IMG/VR virus record: IMGVR_UViG_3300031920_000068
Span: 1 to 44,451 of that record
Direction: 5' to 3' (one strand)
Source of the DNA: a virus
DNA: 44,451 bases
Shown: positions 1-44,451 of the stretch, in pieces
How positions within the stretch are numbered: the stretch's first letter is position 1
Layout: each line of letters starts with the position of its first letter
Position numbers and translations under genes: made by a program
Notes under the pieces: generated by a model
Seen by the model: the letters and a program-made list of their open reading frames with translations, nothing else
Database searches by the model: none
What the model was told of the DNA's origin: nothing

Positions 1-44
1 TTCCAAACACAAACCCTCTCCGCCGTATCACGTTCGTAGTCTGA
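1..44. repeat. Terminal direct repeat, left copy
   Basis: The first 44 bases are identical to the last 44 (44408-44451). An exact short overlap of this kind is what an assembler leaves when it walks round a circular or circularly permuted molecule. It lies inside an open reading frame that continues across the join, which supports circular closure over a true packaged terminal repeat. Confidence 0.9.
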
Positions 45-386
45 TTTGCATTCAATCATGGCACCAATAGTTCTCACTTCTATCGGTAGAGCGTTCCATT
101 TATCGGACCAGCTCATCCCCCACCCCCCCATAGCTTCGTCGATTGCAGCGTTAGCAATTGCCTTCATATCCTCGATGCAGTTGCCGGCGTGCTCCAGAGG
201 GTCACGCATATATCGACCTTCACCCTTTTTAATTTTCTCCAACGCCTCGATGAGCTTCACTCTGCAACCGCGCTCCAGGGTAAGACTATTTTCTTTATCT
301 AAAACACACTTCTTTAGTGATGAAATTTGTTTATTAAGTTCTCTTTCTACGTCATCTCTTAATGTATACAATCTATCAGTTCCCAT
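1..386 (-). CDS. Small modular phage protein spanning the contig join (N-terminal part), apparently two genes fused at a G-run
   Basis: Reading leftward from ATG at 386 (strong GGAGGGGG ribosome binding site, 3 nt after the upstream stop) gives a frame open to base 1. It resumes at 44407 and ends at TAA 44298-44296, about 165 aa in all. The first part is a charged, probably helical protein ending in NAAIDEAMGG. The relatives at 43356 and 43992 end AAIDxAxGGGG-stop at this point. Here a run of seven G (C-run at 123-129) puts the frame one base out, so translation runs on into a second module: MSWSDKWNALP, then KSDYERDTAERVCVW, then a zinc ribbon FCQHCGGKVEVKDE. Removing one G would restore MGGGG-stop overlapping an ATGA start at 116-114, so this may be two genes with a sequencing or slippage error. 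Function unknown. Confidence 0.65.
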   Translation of the reverse strand, partial: MGTDRLYTLRDDVERELNKQISSLKKCVLDKENSLTLERGCRVKLIEALEKIKKGEGRYMRDPLEHAGNCIEDMKAIANAAIDEAMGGWGMSWSDKWNALPIEVRTIGAMIECKSDYERDTAERVCVW

Positions 387-389
387 CAC

Positions 390-5739: not shown

Positions 5740-6299
5740 TTCCCAGTCCTTACTGTTGCAGTGAATTCAGTCTTCACTTCAAGTCCTGGGATGTTACGGA
5801 CTGGTGTTCCTGCTGCATTAACGTACTTATTGATTGCAGTCTCATCAAACTTTACGAAGTGCATGTTACCAGTCTCCATACACCATATGAGAAATGTGCT
5901 CGCACTTATGACCCTCGGCATTAGCTTCGGACCAAGTGTCACACCATCCATTTCAGGAAACAATCTTACTGGAATGTCGCCATCGTCTGCCGCTTCAACT
6001 GCTAACTGATACACATCGTTAGCCCATCCCTCAATCTTCAAACGTCCAGTCGCTTCCGCTGTTGATGCGTCACTAGAAATTGCTCCTCGTTGCTTTGTTA
6101 GGTCTTTATGTACTGCGTTAGCTTTTGCGACAGCCTCCTTAAAGAGCCCAGTGATTTCCTTGTTTGTCCTAGCTGCTTCAACAGTATTGATCGCCATAGC
6201 TTTCGCTGTCTCATCTGTTGTCACTTCAAGTTTTTCGATGCGAGCTAACAGGTCTTTCGCTTTTGTGATTTCTGCTTCTGGAATTGTTACAATATTCAC
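5736..6299 (-). CDS. Recombination-module coiled-coil protein, function unknown
   Basis: In this 187-aa protein residues about 8-95 form a long amphipathic helix pair (AEITKAKDLLARIEKLEVTT...), followed by a compact C-terminal domain with SASTFLIWCMETGNMHFVKF and NIPGLEVKTEFTATVR. Many phages carry a protein of this plan beside their exonuclease and annealing genes, with the C-terminal IPG(V/L) and beta-strand ending. Its exact activity is not known to me; a recombination cofactor is an inference from position. It overlaps both neighbours by 4 nt. Confidence 0.65.
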   Translation of the reverse strand: MNIVTIPEAEITKAKDLLARIEKLEVTTDETAKAMAINTVEAARTNKEITGLFKEAVAKANAVHKDLTKQRGAISSDASTAEATGRLKIEGWANDVYQLAVEAADDGDIPVRLFPEMDGVTLGPKLMPRVISASTFLIWCMETGNMHFVKFDETAINKYVNAAGTPVRNIPGLEVKTEFTATVRTGK

Positions 6300-6931
6300 G
6301 GCGCCTCCATATATCTTTCAAGTGTCATGTCTTTATTATATTCATCAAGTCTATCAATGAACATACCAAAATGTTTGAGCATATTTATTTCACTCTTTTT
6401 TGCCTCCTCTTCCTTGAGTGAAACAAGAAGTCCTGCTTCAACTGCCTCACCCATCTCCTCCACGGCTTTAACGTATGCCGCAACCTGGATACGTCCACCA
6501 GTGGACACTGCTCCAGTCTTCAAATCAATCACTGCTATTCTCTCATCTCGTAGTCGTGCTACTCTATCAACACGTCCACAGTATCCATACTTAATGCTGA
6601 CAATTCCAAGTTCAATTGCAAGAATTTCATCAACGTATTTGTCCTTCCATCTAAGCCATCGTTCAGCATGTGGAATAACATCATCAGTTTTATAATTGGA
6701 CATAATATCCGCAGGAACTAGACCTATTGAATCTAAATACTCTGTTGCGTTATGTACCTCGGTCCCATGCTGCATCGCTATTTGAAACGATGCTTTTTTG
6801 AGAAGGAACTGAGGTATTGGATTTCTGTGCATTACAACTGTTGTCACAGATGGTAGCTTGACTCCATTATGTCTGTAGACATGAGTTATTTCATCATAAA
6901 CTATACCGTTTCCAATATCTTTGAAGCCCAT
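6296..6931 (-). CDS. PD-(D/E)XK exonuclease (RecB/Cas4-like)
   Basis: The 211-aa protein has the active-site order of the RecB-like nuclease superfamily: HGTEVHNATEYL (about 55-66), GYCGRVDRVARL (about 119-130, the motif II Asp), RIAVIDLKTGAVSTG (about 132-147, D-x-K), and RIQVAAYVKAVEE (motif III, catalytic Gln). It would resect phage DNA 5' ends to give single strands for the ERF annealase encoded two genes upstream. This exonuclease-annealase pair is the usual phage homologous recombination module. Confidence 0.85.
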   Translation of the reverse strand: MGFKDIGNGIVYDEITHVYRHNGVKLPSVTTVVMHRNPIPQFLLKKASFQIAMQHGTEVHNATEYLDSIGLVPADIMSNYKTDDVIPHAERWLRWKDKYVDEILAIELGIVSIKYGYCGRVDRVARLRDERIAVIDLKTGAVSTGGRIQVAAYVKAVEEMGEAVEAGLLVSLKEEEAKKSEINMLKHFGMFIDRLDEYNKDMTLERYMEAP

Positions 6932-7274: not shown

Positions 7275-7973
7275 TTATTCAACAATTGCTACTGCGTTTA
7301 CTCGACCCTTCTTCTTCTCGAATCGAATGTTGACTGAGTTATTTCCTGCCGTTGCCGCATGGCATCCATTTGCAACATCACGTTCAAAGGTCGTGAACTC
7401 TCCTTCTGATGTATCAATTGCGAATAGCGTCCATCCGGCGGATTTATCCTCCTTGATCTTCTTGACACTAGTTGGTGTTGCCTCGTGGACGCCGACACCA
7501 GGCTCCCACTTTGGCCGTCTCGCCACGTTTCCAGCGTTTGATCCACTGGCAGCCGCGCCGTCATCGTCGTCTGTGTCAGGCAAGGCAAGCAGTCCTTTGA
7601 GCGTGTACTTCTTGAGGTATGTGAACCAGCTTCCAACCTTCTGAGGATCTTCAAGGTGTGGAATATAGAATGGAGAATCAATTGCATCTGCTGGGCATTC
7701 AATATTAATGAGCCTAGTGATAATACCCTGTCCACCCTCATTATAGAATGTTCCTTGCGTTACAAGGACACCTTCACTGCTTAACAATTCAAGGCATGTG
7801 TCAATCACATTCTCATGTGTGACATAGTTGTACTTGTGTGAACCAACCTGTCCACTCGCTGTCCTCGCAAGTTTCTCCATGTTAATTCGCGCAGCATGAA
7901 CACGTTGATGAATATTCCTCACAACTTCTTCTGTTACTTTTGGTTTTGCTGTCGTCTTCTTTGCCTCAGTCAT
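7275..7973 (-). CDS. erf: ERF-family single-strand DNA annealing protein
   Basis: The 232-aa protein shows ERF superfamily hallmarks: N-terminal VRNIHQRVHAARINMEKLA, then SHKYNYVTHENVIDTCLELL, VTQGTFYNEGGQGIITRLI, and the diagnostic DPQKVGSWFTYLKKYTLKGL followed by LALPDTDDDDGAA (about 108-143). A linker and a C-terminal domain (about 160-232) complete the protein. ERF proteins form rings that anneal complementary single strands, here probably after resection by the PD-(D/E)XK nuclease. The start overlaps the upstream gene by 8 nt. Confidence 0.88.
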   Translation of the reverse strand: MTEAKKTTAKPKVTEEVVRNIHQRVHAARINMEKLARTASGQVGSHKYNYVTHENVIDTCLELLSSEGVLVTQGTFYNEGGQGIITRLINIECPADAIDSPFYIPHLEDPQKVGSWFTYLKKYTLKGLLALPDTDDDDGAAASGSNAGNVARRPKWEPGVGVHEATPTSVKKIKEDKSAGWTLFAIDTSEGEFTTFERDVANGCHAATAGNNSVNIRFEKKKGRVNAVAIVE

Positions 7974-17395: not shown

Positions 17396-18739
17396 ATGAA
17401 TGAACTTAATGCCCTTTCAAAAATCAAGTTGGTGGCTAGTGTTTTATTCACAAAAGGTACGTCGATCTCTACGTTATTCTCGTATGGTGGAAATGCTCCA
17501 GGTCTTACGGATACGACATTACTTAAAGCATACTCTAAACTTCCGTGGTTAAAAGCAGCGTTTGGTAAGGTTGCAGATGGTGTCGCATCAGGCACTTGGT
17601 ACATTGAATCTGCAACTGATAAAGTTACGAAGAAGTATATCTCTGTTCCTTCATTACAGCATGGTAGTTATGAATCAAGGAAAGCTGTGCGGAGGATAAT
17701 GGCAGAGAAGGTTATCCTAGAAAAGACTGTCTCACATCCAATGCTTGACTTGATGGTTGTTCCTAATCCATTTATTACAGGGCATGGATTGATCAAGTTG
17801 ACGCAACTTCATTTAGAGATTACTGGTGAGGCTCTTTGGTGGATTGAACTAAAGAATGGTAGACCAATTCGTATCTGGCCTATTCCTCCTAACTGGATTG
17901 CGAAACGACCTACTCGTAATGGTAATGACTACTTTGAGCTTTCTGTTGATGGTATGCCTGAGAGACTCGGAGTTGAAGAAGTCATTTGGTTTCGTGAGCC
18001 TGACCCAGCAGATCCTTATGAGAGAACTGTAGGCTCAGCAGAGCCGATCGCTGATGAACTTTCAGCAGATGAGTATGCAGCTAAACACGTTAAAGCCTGG
18101 TTCCATAATCATGCCAGACCTGATTTGATTATCAGTGGAACAGGACTTGATAAGGATGAATCAGATAGAGCAGAAGAACGTTGGCTACAGAAGCTCAGAG
18201 GATACTTGAAGGTTGGTCGACCGCATTTCGTCGGTGCAGACATTAAGGTACAGGAAATTGGTCAGAGCTTCGTAAGTATGCAGCTTGTCGAACTTCGTAA
18301 ATTCCAAAGAGACATTGTTATTCAGAGCCTTGGGCTTCCGCCTGAGATTATGGGTATTATTGAATCATCAAATAGGTCAACGATCAATGCTGCATCTTAT
18401 GTGTTCTCGAAGTGGGTATTGATTCCAAGGTTTGACGTTATTAGGCAAACACTTCAAACGCAGTTCATTCCAATGTTTGATAGCAAGTCTATTCTTGAAT
18501 ACGTTTCTCCAGTTGAGGAGGATCGTGAGTTTAGATTAGACGTAATGAAGGCAGCTCCGTATTCATTTACTATTGATGATTGGCGAGCAGTAGTTGGCGA
18601 TGATCCGATGCCGAACGGTCAAGGACAAGTGATCGTTATCCCGAACGCCTCAAGTCTTGCGGAGGCTGATAAGATTCTTGAATGGGAGTCTCCGTATACA
18701 CAACAGTCGCAAGAAGGAAAAGGAGGTACTAATGAATGA
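17396..18739 (+). CDS. Portal protein (HK97/SPP1-like fold)
   Basis: The 447-aa protein is of usual portal length for HK97-type phages. Features: early LPWLKAAFGKVADGVASG, then GEALWWIELKNGRPIRIWPI (about 143-162), VIWFREPDPADPYER, ADEYAAKHVKAWFHNHARPD (about 225-244), and QRDIVIQSLGLPPEIMGIIE (about 309-328), all typical of phage portal families. It forms the dodecameric vertex through which DNA passes. The last 20 or so residues (ILEWESPYTQQSQEGKGGTN) are repeated inside the downstream protease. Confidence 0.88.
   Translation: MNELNALSKIKLVASVLFTKGTSISTLFSYGGNAPGLTDTTLLKAYSKLPWLKAAFGKVADGVASGTWYIESATDKVTKKYISVPSLQHGSYESRKAVRRIMAEKVILEKTVSHPMLDLMVVPNPFITGHGLIKLTQLHLEITGEALWWIELKNGRPIRIWPIPPNWIAKRPTRNGNDYFELSVDGMPERLGVEEVIWFREPDPADPYERTVGSAEPIADELSADEYAAKHVKAWFHNHARPDLIISGTGLDKDESDRAEERWLQKLRGYLKVGRPHFVGADIKVQEIGQSFVSMQLVELRKFQRDIVIQSLGLPPEIMGIIESSNRSTINAASYVFSKWVLIPRFDVIRQTLQTQFIPMFDSKSILEYVSPVEEDREFRLDVMKAAPYSFTIDDWRAVVGDDPMPNGQGQVIVIPNASSLAEADKILEWESPYTQQSQEGKGGTNE
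18672..18730. repeat. 59-bp direct repeat, copy 1 (portal 3' end)
   Basis: It matches 19462-19520 at 58 of 59 positions. It encodes the portal C-terminus and includes the AAGGAGG ribosome binding site of the protease gene. Spacing between copies is 790 bp. Confidence 0.9.
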
Positions 18740-19805
18740 TCTTATTGGTATTGATGAATGGATAAAGTTTAGTCCAGAGATACAAGGTGAATGCAAATCA
18801 ATTATCTGCTCTGAGGGTGAAGGTCACTTTATGCTTATGAAGGATGACTGTATTGTTAATCCAAAGGCAGTAGACGTTGAATCGTTGCTTGATGGTGGAC
18901 AGCTTCGTCATGTTATTTCAGATGAAACAATTGATAGGCATGGTGACATTGTTCGCGCAAGTGGATGGGATCTCACAAACTACAAAAAGAATCCTGTTAT
19001 TCTTCTTGGTCATAACCATAGAGGATTGCCAATTGGTAAATCAATTAGGATTATCAAAAGAATAAAAGAGAAGCAACTTGTTTCAGTTGGTGAGTATCCA
19101 TCTGCCGAATTGCACGAGGAAGCGAACACCGTGTTTCGTTTGGCAGTAAGTGGATACATTAATTCAGTGAGTGTTGGATTCATGCCAAAGGAATGGGAGC
19201 CGATTGATGAAGAGCACCCCTGGGATGGATATGACATCAAGAAGCAAGAGTTGTGGGAGTACAGTATTGTTCCTGTTCCTGCTAATCCTAACGCTTTGAT
19301 AAACGCAGCTAATGAGATCCCCGGTGGCGTTGGATTCATCAGACGTTGGGCTGAAAAGATTCTTGATGAGATGCCAAATGAAAAAGAACTCAAAGACCTT
19401 GATGATGCTCGTAAGATTTTGTCTGGCGACAGGGTTATTCTTACGCCTGGTGGGTCTGCTGAGATTCTTGAATGGGAGTCTCCATATACACAACAGTCGC
19501 AAGAAGGAAAAGGAGGTACTGATGATGGCGCATTTGCTGATTCAGTTAAAGAGTTTGAAATGTCTATTCTTGCAAGAGTGGCAAAGACTGAGGATGCGGC
19601 GCACAGACGTGTTAGTGATGTTGTTGACCCTATTATTGCCGATGTTAAAGATGATCCAGAAGGCAAAGATGCCACTCAGGATGACCCTGTCGTTCTGACT
19701 CTTATTGACGAGCCGACCATCGAAATTGATGAATCGGTGATTACCAACATGGTCGCTGATGTAGTGACCAACGTAACCGGTCGATTGATCGACAGGGAGG
19801 TTTAG
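18732..19805 (+). CDS. Prohead (capsid maturation) protease, S78/HK97 type, with long C-terminal extension
   Basis: ATG 18732 follows GGAGGTACTA; the frame upstream of it is portal sequence. The 357-aa product carries LRHVISDETIDRHGDIVRAS (about 58-77), the catalytic His region LLGHNHRGLP (91-100) and the Ser region YINSVSVGFMP (142-152), which define the U35/S78 prohead proteases. The core ends near residue 190; the remaining 165 residues are acidic and helical, likely a scaffold-like domain cleaved away during assembly. Residues about 244-264 repeat the portal C-terminus almost exactly. Confidence 0.88.
   Translation: MNDLIGIDEWIKFSPEIQGECKSIICSEGEGHFMLMKDDCIVNPKAVDVESLLDGGQLRHVISDETIDRHGDIVRASGWDLTNYKKNPVILLGHNHRGLPIGKSIRIIKRIKEKQLVSVGEYPSAELHEEANTVFRLAVSGYINSVSVGFMPKEWEPIDEEHPWDGYDIKKQELWEYSIVPVPANPNALINAANEIPGGVGFIRRWAEKILDEMPNEKELKDLDDARKILSGDRVILTPGGSAEILEWESPYTQQSQEGKGGTDDGAFADSVKEFEMSILARVAKTEDAAHRRVSDVVDPIIADVKDDPEGKDATQDDPVVLTLIDEPTIEIDESVITNMVADVVTNVTGRLIDREV
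19462..19520. repeat. 59-bp direct repeat, copy 2 (inside protease gene)
   Basis: This is the copy of 18672-18730, in the frame that gives the same peptide, including the unused ribosome binding site sequence. A GATGATGG follows where the first copy has AATGAATG. Confidence 0.9.
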
Positions 19806-41362: not shown

Positions 41363-41638
41363 TTAAAAAACTTCCTCAAAGACATGCACAACAAAGTTAC
41401 CCATCTCTAGCAATATCGTTCCGAGGAATACCTCCGCTTTTCTATTACTGAAAGCGACTCCAGTTATTTTGACATGAAACACACGTTTTATTGTTTGTTT
41501 TTCTCCGTAGTAAAATAGATACCACATTACCATGTTGTTCTTTTGTGCCGCTACACTTAAAATTTCAGCACCAAGAGGAAGCTCGATCTCATTTCTGTGC
41601 ATATGTAACTGAACTTTATGTATTACTACGTCACTCAT
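41363..41638 (-). CDS. DUF7352-like small protein
   Basis: ATG 41638 overlaps the RusA stop (ATGA). The 91-aa protein has HKVQLHMHRNEIELPLGAEI then ILSVAAQKNNMVMWYLF and a terminal FLGTILLEMGNFVVHVFEEV. The P-x-G-A-x-(I/V)-L-x-V-x-x-Q and final V-W/V-H-V-(F/Y) pattern is that of a widespread phage early protein family (DUF7352) of unknown function. It is last in the long leftward unit, directly before the terminator. Confidence 0.7.
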   Translation of the reverse strand: MSDVVIHKVQLHMHRNEIELPLGAEILSVAAQKNNMVMWYLFYYGEKQTIKRVFHVKITGVAFSNRKAEVFLGTILLEMGNFVVHVFEEVF

Positions 41639-42111
41639 GATCCCATCTCCCAATCATTAGGCTCAAGCATATCAACAAACGCGACAATACCTGGAGACAT
41701 ATCCCTTTCCACCCATTTTTTAATAAGGTGTTGATCAAATACTTGTCCGTCATCAACATACACGATACTGGTTAGTGCATCCATGATAGCTCTAAGTAAC
41801 TTATCGCCGTCAGGTGCTTGAATGTGCTTTGGTGGAGCATCAGCTCTCAATATATCTGAGAACTTTCCAGTTCTGTAGTGTTTCTTTGGTCGTACTAACA
41901 TTGCTTCAACGTAGACTCTAACAGGCCCATCCCATACTTTAAAGTTCTGTGATATCATACTCTTCTGAGCAGATGCACCAACCCATCTTCTCCAATCGAC
42001 AAGACCTTCTTTATGCTTCATAAAGATACGACCAGTACTCTTGCTTCTAATTGGAGTCATGCTACCTTGCGTGAGTGGTCTTCCTGTAACGTCAAATCTA
42101 ATCGTTTTCAT
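41635..42111 (-). CDS. rusA: RusA-family Holliday junction resolvase
   Basis: The 158-aa protein begins with FDVTGRPLTQGSMTPIRSKS; PDGDKLLRAIMDALTSIVYV (about 107-126) then DDGQVFDQHLIKKWV is the RusA core (acidic PDxDN-like site, here PDGDK, followed by the YxDDxQ site). RusA cuts four-way junctions and trims recombination and replication intermediates before packaging. It pairs functionally with the exonuclease and ERF protein. AAAAGGAG lies about 7 nt upstream of the ATG. Confidence 0.85.
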   Translation of the reverse strand: MKTIRFDVTGRPLTQGSMTPIRSKSTGRIFMKHKEGLVDWRRWVGASAQKSMISQNFKVWDGPVRVYVEAMLVRPKKHYRTGKFSDILRADAPPKHIQAPDGDKLLRAIMDALTSIVYVDDGQVFDQHLIKKWVERDMSPGIVAFVDMLEPNDWEMGS

Positions 42112-42139
42112 TTTTACTCCTTTTTATTATCATTTACCT

Positions 42140-42331
42140 CTACCTTTCCTCCATAATCTTTACAAAATGTTTCATAAATATGATTAACTGTGCCCGCTCA
42201 CGCTCCAGGGCGATGTCGCGCTCGTAGTCTGAGTTGAGGACGTAGCCTCCAGTCGGAAACGGCTCCAACTCACAACAGCACGGCACCATCGGATCAACGA
42301 AAAATCTATACCGCTGCACTGTGTTAGTCAT
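42140..42331 (-). CDS. Small modular protein, C-terminal module out of frame
   Basis: The 63-aa protein MTNTVQRYRFFVDPMVPCCC, then FPTGGYVLNSDYERDIALER, ends IMEER. It carries the VQRY and SDYERD modules of this cluster. The bases just past and across its stop encode, one frame over, FCKDYGGKVEVND, the zinc-ribbon module of its neighbours with one Cys changed to Tyr. It therefore looks like a frameshifted member or a recombination scar. The VQRY...GxYV...SDYE plan is common in small phage proteins of unknown function. Confidence 0.65.
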   Translation of the reverse strand: MTNTVQRYRFFVDPMVPCCCELEPFPTGGYVLNSDYERDIALERERAQLIIFMKHFVKIMEER

Positions 42332-42573
42332 CCCAACCGCCCTATTCCAGCATGAATCTCGCTAATCCCGAGACCACCGTCAATAACATCAATTGTCAAC
42401 ACAATCCGCTGCCTTCCAGTGTTCATAAAACTGTCATCACACAGGCTCTTCACTACCACATGGTCTTGCGCGAGTTCAATGTTGGTCATCTGCACATCAC
42501 GCATCTTTTCCTCGATTACGTCGGCAATTACTCTGAGCACTCGTACAGTGTACTTTTTTTCTTGTTCACTCAT
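42328..42573 (-). CDS. Hypothetical protein in the modular cluster
   Basis: The 81-aa protein MSEQEKKYTVRVLRVIADVI is alpha/beta with QRIVLTIDVIDGGLGISEIH, acidic. It does not carry the modules of its neighbours but begins with the same 8-nt overlap (ATGAGTGA) to the upstream gene's KDE stop, suggesting insertion behind a duplicated junction. Confidence 0.62.
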   Translation of the reverse strand: MSEQEKKYTVRVLRVIADVIEEKMRDVQMTNIELAQDHVVVKSLCDDSFMNTGRQRIVLTIDVIDGGLGISEIHAGIGRLG

Positions 42574-42835
42574 CCTTCACCTCGACCTTTCCTCCGCAGT
42601 ATGAGCAAAAGTTGGGGGTATCAAATCTGTAATCTGGCTCAGATCCACACTGAGGATTCCAGTCACCCCATGTTTCGCATGATACCCAAACACAAACTTT
42701 CTTCGCTGTGTCGCGAATGTAGTCCCTGAATAGAACAACACACCCATGTTCATCATCATCTAAGAACGGAATCCATTCTTCCGTCCCCTTGTCTTGATAA
42801 ACACGAGGACTATACCGCTGAACAGAATCACTCAT
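42566..42835 (-). CDS. Small modular protein with zinc ribbon
   Basis: The 89-aa protein has N-module MSDSVQRYSPRVY, the middle FRDYIRDTAKKVCVWVSCET and the C-module NFCSYCGGKVEVKDE. The Cys pairs (WNPQC and FCSYC) suggest a zinc ribbon. It closely matches the join-spanning gene in RDTAxxVCVW and FCxxCGGKVEVKDE. The final KDE-stop and next start share 8 nt. Function unknown. Confidence 0.68.
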   Translation of the reverse strand: MSDSVQRYSPRVYQDKGTEEWIPFLDDDEHGCVVLFRDYIRDTAKKVCVWVSCETWGDWNPQCGSEPDYRFDTPNFCSYCGGKVEVKDE

Positions 42836-43121
42836 CCCCCACCTCGACCTTCCCGCTGCGCCACGAGATGGGCAATGTCATCCATGCTTCAATGGTGTAG
42901 TATTTAGTCCATTCCCCACGAAAGAGGCAATCAACATCAAGAGCGCCGGATATCGTTGTTACTAGATATTGACCATCCTTTTTTGGATGGCCGGTTTGCC
43001 AAACCCTCACCGCCGTATCGCGCTCGTAGTCTGAACCTTTAACGTAACTGCCAAACTCGGGCTTACTTACGGCACACATTCCAACTGAAGACCATGCCCA
43101 CCGCTGCACTTTGTCACTCAT
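42828..43121 (-). CDS. Small modular protein
   Basis: The 97-aa protein has N-module MSDKVQRWAWSSVGMCAV, middle YVKGSDYERDTAVRVWQTGH and end SGKVEVGDE. It keeps the N and middle modules exactly but has replaced the cysteine ribbon by IEAWMTLPISWR, leaving only the last nine residues. It overlaps both neighbours by 8 nt. Confidence 0.66.
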   Translation of the reverse strand: MSDKVQRWAWSSVGMCAVSKPEFGSYVKGSDYERDTAVRVWQTGHPKKDGQYLVTTISGALDVDCLFRGEWTKYYTIEAWMTLPISWRSGKVEVGDE

Positions 43122-43359
43122 CTTTCACCTCGACCTTCCCGCCACCACTGACTCGATTCCATCTCTGCACAAGCCTCTGCCCTTCTGTCGGCTTTGGATA
43201 TGGCTTGAACATCGCACATGACCAATGCCCACTAACGCATGGTGCTGTACTGTCCATGTGTTCAATCCAATTGGCAACGCCGCGTGTGATTCTCATTGCC
43301 CTGAGTCTTACCCTTTTCCCACAGATGCAGTCACGCATCCTTCGTTGCGCATCACTCAT
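43114..43359 (-). CDS. Small modular protein, Arg/Cys-rich
   Basis: The 81-aa protein begins MSDAQRRMRDCICGKRVRLR (N-module shortened, CxC-like), has a middle unlike its neighbours (IEHMDSTAPCVSGHWSC) and ends VSGGGKVEVKDE. Basic overall. The same C-terminal tail and 8-nt junction to the next gene are kept. Function unknown. Confidence 0.62.
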   Translation of the reverse strand: MSDAQRRMRDCICGKRVRLRAMRITRGVANWIEHMDSTAPCVSGHWSCAMFKPYPKPTEGQRLVQRWNRVSGGGKVEVKDE

Positions 43360-43649
43360 CCTCCACCTCCCATAGCCGCATCAATTGCTGCATCGGTGTC
43401 TTTGTCGATGATCGGCGTTCTTTGGATATAGCCATCCGCGTACCATGCGATTTGAGCACGCCCGTCATCATCGTAGGTGATCGCGACCTCGTGTTCTATC
43501 CACCAATCCCTGCGCCCGCGCTCCAGGGTGAGTCTGGCCTCGTGGTCCTCCTCTGTGACATATTTCTTACCGCCAGAGCGCACCATGAAGCCATTTGATG
43601 GTTGCATTACACCAATGGCACACACCCACCGCTGCACTGTGTCACTCAT
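43356..43649 (-). CDS. Small modular protein with AAIDAAMGGGG tail
   Basis: ATG 43649 is preceded by GGGAGG (7 nt), giving 97 aa: MSDTVQRWVCAIGVMQPSNG, then YVTEEDHEARLTLERGRRDW, ending TDAAIDAAMGGGG. An upstream frame to 43703 reads CYCQQCAEREVGMSD, which looks like the cysteine module of the family joined in front of this start: a remnant of a neighbouring copy. The GGGG-stop tail is shared with 43992 and the join-spanning gene. Function unknown. Confidence 0.66.
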   Translation of the reverse strand: MSDTVQRWVCAIGVMQPSNGFMVRSGGKKYVTEEDHEARLTLERGRRDWWIEHEVAITYDDDGRAQIAWYADGYIQRTPIIDKDTDAAIDAAMGGGG

Positions 43650-43692
43650 CCCAACCTCCCTCTCCGCGCATTGTTGGCAGTAGCATAGGTTG

Positions 43693-43995
43693 TCATGTGA
43701 CATGGTCGTCTCCTGTCATGGCCCTGGCATCAAAGAGCGCCTGTTCAGAGCAAGACAACTGAAACTTCAATATCTTAATCTGACTCTTCTTCCGGCACAC
43801 GAACGACTCAAGCGCGAGCTTCTTGGTTGGGTAGGCATACCGTTTCCTGGCATCATCGAGAACGAACCTCCTGACGTCAGAGAATAACACTGCTCTAATC
43901 CACACACCGCACTCGGTTTCTTTAATTACTTCAAATTCAAGATGTTTGAGTTTGTAATTAAAAACAGGTGAGTTCTCAAATCTGTGGTACGTCAT
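43693..43995 (-). CDS. Hypothetical protein in the modular cluster
   Basis: The 100-aa basic alpha/beta protein MTYHRFENSPVFNYKLKHLE, with ETECGVWIRAVLFSDVRRFV, ends with a helical tail. It lacks the cluster's modules. The start overlaps the GGGG-stop of the upstream gene by 4 nt (ATGA), a second type of junction in this cluster. Confidence 0.62.
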   Translation of the reverse strand: MTYHRFENSPVFNYKLKHLEFEVIKETECGVWIRAVLFSDVRRFVLDDARKRYAYPTKKLALESFVCRKKSQIKILKFQLSCSEQALFDARAMTGDDHVT

Positions 43996-44303
43996 CCCCC
44001 ACCTCCCCTAGCCTTGTCGATCGCGGCGTTGATGTCTTTGTTGAGGATCGGAGCTGATGATCCAGACAAGTCCTCAAGTGTCCACCATAGGGTTTTCCCC
44101 TCCACCCCGGCGGCGTGCCTCAGACACCACTCCTTGCGCTCTCGTTCTTTGGCGAGCGCATCAAATACCTCGCCCAGTAGCTCAGTTGTATGCTTTTTGC
44201 AATTCTCCTCTGTTGCTCCCTCTGTAGAGTAGTTCAGTAGTATTGCTCTTGCTTCACATAGTTCGTTCGGGTCACGCTCTATCCCACACTCACATTTATT
44301 CAT
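43992..44303 (-). CDS. Small modular protein with N-terminal Cys pair and GGGG tail
   Basis: In the 103-aa protein MNKCECGIERDPNELCEARA opens with CxC...C (metal binding possible), a helical middle follows with LAKERERKEWCLRHAAGVEG, and the end is NKDINAAIDKARGGGG. The tail matches 43356 and the join-spanning gene. The ATG (44303) overlaps the stop of the join-spanning gene by 8 nt. Confidence 0.64.
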   Translation of the reverse strand: MNKCECGIERDPNELCEARAILLNYSTEGATEENCKKHTTELLGEVFDALAKERERKEWCLRHAAGVEGKTLWWTLEDLSGSSAPILNKDINAAIDKARGGGG

Positions 44304-44451
44304 CTTTCACCTCGACCTTCCCTCCGCAATGTTGGCAGAAAGACCCAGCCGCATCCAATGAAGCACACTGACACGATGTCCACCATTCTTCGAGCTGTTT
44401 GTTCCACTTCCAAACACAAACCCTCTCCGCCGTATCACGTTCGTAGTCTGA
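44296..44451 (-). CDS. C-terminal part of the join-spanning modular protein
   Basis: This is the continuation of the frame that leaves the window at base 1. It encodes YERDTAERVCVWKWNK, then LEEWWTSCQCASLDAAGSFC and QHCGGKVEVKDE, ending at TAA 44298-44296. Two Cys pairs (CQC and CQHC) form a probable zinc ribbon. The terminal module is nearly identical to that of 42566. See the entry at 1-386 for the N-terminal part and the G-run frame problem. Confidence 0.68.
   Translation of the reverse strand, partial: SDYERDTAERVCVWKWNKQLEEWWTSCQCASLDAAGSFCQHCGGKVEVKDE
44408..44451. repeat. Terminal direct repeat, right copy
   Basis: Identical to bases 1-44. It marks the assembly overlap of a circular or circularly permuted genome. 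Confidence 0.9.

Follow-up and report, generated by a model that had tools for sequence, protein, structure and literature searches.

Among phages, the closest counterpart to repeated start sequences of the kind considered here is the start-associated sequence (SAS) of the cluster K mycobacteriophages, a 13-bp consensus (GGGATAGGAGCCC) that lies within 3-7 bp of gene starts and recurs across the right half of the genome (PMC3203893). In lambdoid phages short stretches of homologous DNA at gene boundaries, the boundary sequences, have been proposed as guides of a recombination by which genes are assorted (Clark et al. 2001, for HK620; Susskind and Botstein 1978; as given in the passage of PMC3029335 that cites them). 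Two classes of overlap between neighbouring genes, NTGA (-4) and NTGNNTGA (-8), are common and are recognised as classes of translational coupling (PMC12548453). Finally, Erf recombinases and Erf-exonuclease pairs act on homology that is diverged and short (PMC3945230).

The window, that is the whole stretch of 44,451 nucleotides analysed here (IMG/VR record IMGVR_UViG_3300031920_000068), is a tailed-phage contig with genes for terminase, portal, protease, head, tape-measure and tail proteins on its plus strand and a minus-strand block that holds prim-pol/DnaB helicase, Erf, exonuclease and RusA. Its two ends carry an exact 44-bp repeat (1-44 = 44408-44451), so the circle measures 44,407 bp and the join falls within a module. 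Distal in the minus-strand block lies an array of ten small, tightly overlapping genes, which runs from gA (389) across the join to gJ (42140) and is followed directly by RusA (gK). The array is probably an operon of translationally coupled small phage genes, enlarged over time through duplication and recombination.

Table 1. Positions of the array genes, their junctions and the recombination genes in the window
Feature	Position	Strand	Sequence features
gA	113..389	-	GTG start 389; LTLERG segment 287-262; type-2 end AAIDEAMGG 149-113, out of register through one additional G (seven-G run)
gB, 5' part	1..116	-	MSWSDKWNALPIEVRTIGAMIECK-SDYERDTAERVCVW; runs on across the join
gB, 3' part	44296..44451	-	SDYERDTAERVCVW ... 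FCQHCGGKVEVKDE-stop; type-1 end
gC	43992..44303	-	unique N part; ALAKERERKEW; type-2 end NAAIDKARGGGG-stop
Type-2 junction	43992..44051	-	78% identity over 60 nt with 43356-43415
gD	43693..43995	-	member of the phrog_13631 family (E 1.6e-23); itself without shared module
Short in-frame stretch ahead of gE	43650..43703	-	CYCQQCAEREVG; 3' part is type-3 junction DNA
Type-3 junction + N-module	43628..43671	-	84% identity over 44 nt with 42310-42353; different upstream frames
gE	43356..43649	-	N-module MSDTVQRW; DHEARLTLERGRR; type-2 end DAAIDAAMGGGG-stop
gF	43114..43359	-	ATGAGTGA start, no VQR module there; type-1 end GGGKVEVKDE-stop
gG	42828..43121	-	MSDKVQRW; SDYERDTAVRVW; type-1 end SGKVEVGDE-stop
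gH	42566..42835	-	MSDSVQRY; RDYIRDTAKKVCVW; type-1 end FCSYCGGKVEVKDE-stop
gI	42328..42573	-	MSE start behind type-1 junction, rest unique; end in type-3 DNA (GIGRLG-stop)
gJ	42140..42331	-	MTNTVQRY; SDYERDIALERER; frameshift at the 3' end with respect to KVEV
Out-of-frame copy of type-1 end	42129..42167	-	FCKDYGGKVEVND
gK, RusA Holliday-junction resolvase	41635..42111	-	own Shine-Dalgarno sequence
Erf-family single-strand annealing protein	7275..7973	-	Pfam E 3e-14; possible recombination engine
Phage exonuclease	6296..6931	-	phrog_298

A preliminary description of this DNA had proposed that the genes are assembled from interchangeable modules, and all of the modules that it named are found, on the minus strand. 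The N-module MSDxVQR(W/Y) starts at 43649, 43121 and 42835, with the variant MTNTVQRY at 42331. The SDYE-type middle is present at 44 (in the gene across the join), 43034, 42727 (as RDYIRDTA) and 42232, with a diverged form, DHEARLT, at 43550. The GKVEVxDE end closes the genes ending at 44296, 43114, 42828 and 42566 and recurs out of frame at 42149 as the remnant described past 42140, and the AAIDxAxGGGG end is seen at 43992, at 43356 and, with an extra G, at 149-113. Although the N-module and the middle were presented as separate units, they are adjacent parts of one conserved region in four genes, and gB alone combines the middle with another N-terminus. The other remnant, ahead of gE, is also present; it is a brief stretch of open sequence, MSHDNLCYCQQCAEREVG, that shares the frame of that gene.

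The claim that these segments are alike beyond chance holds, since an ungapped self comparison of the 2.9-kb cluster returns 25 repeat pairs (score at least 14), whereas 60 first-order Markov shuffles give 0.3 on average and never more than 3, and stretches of 2.9 kb elsewhere in this phage have 0-3. Across the whole genome, eight of the nine direct-repeat pairs that score at least 22 are inside the array. The arginine of VQR is encoded by CGG in 4/4 copies, a codon that makes up 4% of the arginine codons of the phage, which argues for common descent and not convergence. The shared DNA reaches into coding parts, and the VQR(W/Y), SDYERDTA, FCxxC and PI(I/L)xKDxxAAID segments are homologous pieces of paralogs.

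What, then, is shared where one gene gives way to the next? Alignment of each start together with its upstream DNA yields three classes of junction. Type 1 has GGRAAGGTCGAGGTGRRRG ahead of the ATG and precedes gC, gG, gH and gI; type 2 has GGGAGGTGGRGG in this position and precedes gD and gF and, with the G run, gB; type 3, with AGGGMGGTTGGG, precedes gE and gJ. Start and stop overlap in the manner of translationally coupled genes, by -8 in four pairs and by -4 in three. The stop/start sequence reported as common to several junctions, ATGAGTGA, does form the -8 overlap at gF/gG, gG/gH and gH/gI, but the other junctions differ, with ATGAATAA as the -8 overlap at gB/gC and 4-nt ATGA overlaps at gC/gD, gE/gF and gI/gJ. 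GAGG is placed exactly 6 nt ahead of the start in gA (a GTG start), gC, gD, gF, gG, gH and gI, and 5 nt ahead in gE. The 6-nt spacing is attained in two unrelated coding contexts, GTC GAG GTG AAA GAT G and GGA GGT GGG GGA TGA, such that the C-terminal peptides GKVEVxDE-stop and AAIDxAxGGGG-stop differ and yet place GAGG identically with respect to the next start. The predicted energies of pairing between the Shine-Dalgarno (SD) sequence and the 16S 3' end (anti-SD) at the array junctions range from -7.2 to -12.5, with a mean of -9.9 as against -6.1 kcal/mol for the other overlapping minus-strand junctions (Mann-Whitney P 0.005), and the predicted pairing is also stronger than that of all other starts scored (P 0.0015).

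The combination of a -8 overlap with GAGG-N6-ATG forces the upstream frame to read GAG GNN NNN NAT GNN TGA, which is to say Glu, a codon beginning with G (Val if the SD is the longer GAGGTG), any codon, NAT (Asp here), GNN (Glu here) and stop, whilst the downstream frame is held to Met, any NNT codon and Asp/Glu. VEVxDE-stop/MSD is therefore largely what a strong start site so arranged must encode. With the amino acids taken as given, synonymous resampling of each junction finds a fraction of 0.10-0.38 to be as strong (0.03 for gI/gJ alone), so the codons of the C-modules are mostly not significantly SD-optimised. The type-3 copies read ...EREVG up to the M of the start in one case and ...GRLG-stop in the other, and the unit that they share is thus DNA rather than peptide. 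At the end of the array the next gene, gK, is served by an SD of its own, and the copy of KVEV found there is out of frame and shows codon drift, from GTCGAGGTG to GTAGAGGTA. A scan of ~85,000 genomes located FGKVEVIDE-stop/MSD in two Firmicutes MAGs, where it joins, in the same frame as here, a pair of unrelated cellular genes that we take from their sequence to be dnaX and recR; the number of matches is about the chance expectation for the pattern, so that only position and frame are telling, and the pair illustrates the coding rule of the start site without proving it. Taken on sequence, the C-modules are best read as the translation-initiation regions of the next gene and not as free-standing protein domains, and we infer that the genes of the array are coupled in vivo. 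The similarity of type 2 extends ~46 nt upstream of the SD, and that of the Cys part of type 1 ~15 nt, which means that some protein homology past the start site is shared as well. Promoters and terminators show no excess over shuffles at the junctions, and as Rfam gave no match the idea of a structured RNA was dropped.

The mosaic nature of the array is apparent from the way in which upstream class and N-module assort, in four combinations: type 1 with the N-module (gG, gH), type 1 without it (gC, gI), type 3 with it (gE, gJ) and type 2 without it (gB, gD, gF). Small genes that share parts in varied combinations had been described, and this much stands; such assortment needs recombination or repeated replacement. 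In gB the middle and end of the family are joined to an unrelated N-terminus, and in gF a type-1 end is found on an unrelated body, with the ATGAGTGA start behind a type-2 junction. The nearest relative of gG changes along its length, being gE for the start (24/27), gB for the middle (91% over 35 nt) and gC for the upstream junction (23/28). Could the same picture arise if a single ancestral gene had simply been duplicated in tandem and the copies had then diverged with no exchange, their ends kept alike by selection on start sites and a few residues? The paralogy of gE, gG, gH and gJ through their N and middle segments would suit this, as would the expectation that start regions stay conserved. 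However, gC, gD and gI have only junctions or ends in common, a single tree without exchange does not easily produce the mosaic distribution of the segments, and for gB and gF plain duplication is disfavoured unless their bodies have diverged beyond recognition, which leaves this an unlikely account.

Past recombination or gene replacement at the junctions is the best account of the module combinations, because these change where junction DNA is shared. Several of the genes probably go back to a single ancestral small protein, VQR(W/Y)...GxYVxxSDYERD, of which the N part, the middle and the end have been exchanged. At each junction an SD lies within the upstream gene's final codons, followed by a start/stop overlap of 4 or 8 nt and the opening codons of the downstream gene. 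As the ribosome-binding site would thus be coding DNA of the preceding gene, a cistron copied or exchanged together with its own start site would re-tip the C-terminus of its neighbour, and hence the look of interchangeable C-modules. Exchange would most likely have proceeded via short junction homology, with Erf and the exonuclease as a plausible engine; Erf, exonuclease and RusA genes are all present in the phage. The mosaic is most simply reached by homologous or homeologous recombination at the junctions, with the role of Erf and the timing of exchange being what we infer.

The preliminary description went further, and saw a locus that makes new small proteins by recombination. Homologous DNA modules in varied combinations are indeed there, but a device is not supported, since the overlap belongs to a common class (PMC12548453) and the end-modules are explained as embedded ribosome-binding sites. 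The pattern is striking and real; active shuffling is without direct support here. It is quite unlikely that the array is a hotspot where parts of small proteins are actively being reassorted within the phage population, with coding ribosome-binding sites as recombination joints; were this so, each exchange would preserve the translation of the next gene and alter the C-terminus of the previous one. A dedicated diversification locus, whose conserved junctions are recombination sites steadily yielding new small fusion proteins across the phage population, is very unlikely: it would agree with the four-combination mosaic, the sharp segment boundaries, the partial modules, the two frameshifted ends and a contig that ends within a module, as would be seen had the assembly been broken by reads of variant arrays, but the junction sequence wholly suits ribosome binding, occasional ordinary recombination yields the same result, no inverted repeats and no recombinase gene are seen inside the array, and no relatives or variants were found in the collections searched. 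An inversion or site-specific shuffling system was rejected, as the array has no inverted repeat pairs of at least 12 nt and neither its proteins nor RusA match a site-specific recombinase.

The assembly itself calls for some care. In the assembled frame gA and gB are fused because of the seven-G run at about 123-129; with one G fewer, the first of them would terminate in AAIDEAMGGGG-stop and the second would start MSWSDKW. A -1 ribosomal shift at this run would end gA at the overlapping TGA; programmed frameshifting here was considered and dropped. The gA/gB fusion and the end of gJ are frameshifts, either real or possibly sequencing errors, and gB, which spans the join, is to be treated with caution as a possible product of the assembly. 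The terminal repeat sits exactly in the SDYERDTAERVCVW module of gB, where a repeat-caused assembly break is possible; given that the shared segments make up 1.6% of the genome and yet the contig ends inside one of them, this may be chance, such a break or a sign of variant arrays. That the array as a whole is an artefact of chimeric joins caused by repeats, foremost at gB, is barely credible, for although the 44-bp terminal identity falls exactly in a repeated module and two frameshifts lie at or near homopolymer runs, the copies differ from one another at many positions, all lie within one contiguous stretch, and have exact repeats of less than ~25 nt within the array, which short-read assembly should resolve.

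Relatives carrying the modules were found in none of INPHARED, IMG/VR and GTDB contigs. In INPHARED nothing significant was returned by the cluster DNA, the proteins gG, gH and gE or the consensus N-domain; in IMG/VR no close relative was found with single array proteins, RusA or prim-pol, and the exact junction pattern had no match. The IMG/VR pattern matches were set aside: the one to the N-module is inside an unrelated gene, the three to DYERDTA are in unrelated contexts and the four to type 2 are all in a terminase gene in another frame. A profile search of GTDB contigs gave 170 pattern matches and 0 relatives, and the junction pattern found only the dnaX/recR-like pair there. Searching with the terminase identified two relatives (42-45% identity), both partial contigs without detectable modules. 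For the module genes Pfam, PHROGs, NCBIfam, PADLOC and PDB sequences offered nothing convincing, gD (phrog_13631) excepted. That family is scattered among Achromobacter, Sinorhizobium, Rhizobium and Cellulophaga phages, and gD is placed like an insert within the array, with type-2 DNA ahead of its start. The G+C content of most array genes (42140-44303) is 0.45-0.56, as against mostly 0.34-0.47 for most other minus-strand genes, which suggests that they were acquired from elsewhere. With gH, the only Pfam zinc-ribbon matches are sub-threshold (E 0.013) and the AlphaFold2 model is unusable (pLDDT 35); gB and gH could, on the pattern of their cysteines, bind zinc, and the ends of gF and gG lack cysteines.

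Elsewhere in the genome, a 70-bp segment occurs twice with 94% identity (18666-18735 and 19456-19525). It stems from the portal gene's 3' end, where it takes in the ribosome-binding site of the protease gene, and the copy lies in frame inside the head protease gene, so that the portal C-terminus and the protease share ILEWESPYTQQSQEGKGGT. The repeat may encode a head-assembly peptide that both proteins share, or it may be a further gene end that was recently copied along with its start site.

The array bears on how small phage proteins are read, for overlapping start sites can make separate proteins look modular, with the shared C-terminal peptide a by-product of an embedded ribosome-binding site; shared terminal motifs in such proteins should not be taken for domains. 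It also provides a concrete candidate for coding start sites that serve as recombination homology between coupled genes.

How does the locus compare with the systems introduced above? Like the SAS of cluster K, it has a short sequence repeated just upstream of many starts, mostly in one orientation, with a core able to pair with 16S rRNA and adjoining genes of different families. Unlike SAS, it has three junction classes, is clustered and is built on -4/-8 overlaps, and its junction sequences, read directly, differ from the SAS consensus. Its ATGA and ATGAGTGA are exactly the overlap classes of translational coupling, but unlike ordinary coupling overlaps the neighbouring ones here also share flanking DNA by descent. 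As with Erf/Rad52-like relaxed recombination, the phage encodes Erf and an exonuclease. With the lambdoid boundary sequences the array shares the same short sequence at the boundaries of different genes; in contrast to these, its boundary DNA is coding, is present in several copies in one operon of one genome, and doubles as a start site. With boundary sequences of the lambdoid type the genes between boundaries would be expected to differ among related phages; the array is known here from one genome. The array may thus be viewed as a boundary-sequence mosaic whose boundary is a putative coding ribosome-binding site, each ingredient of which is already known.
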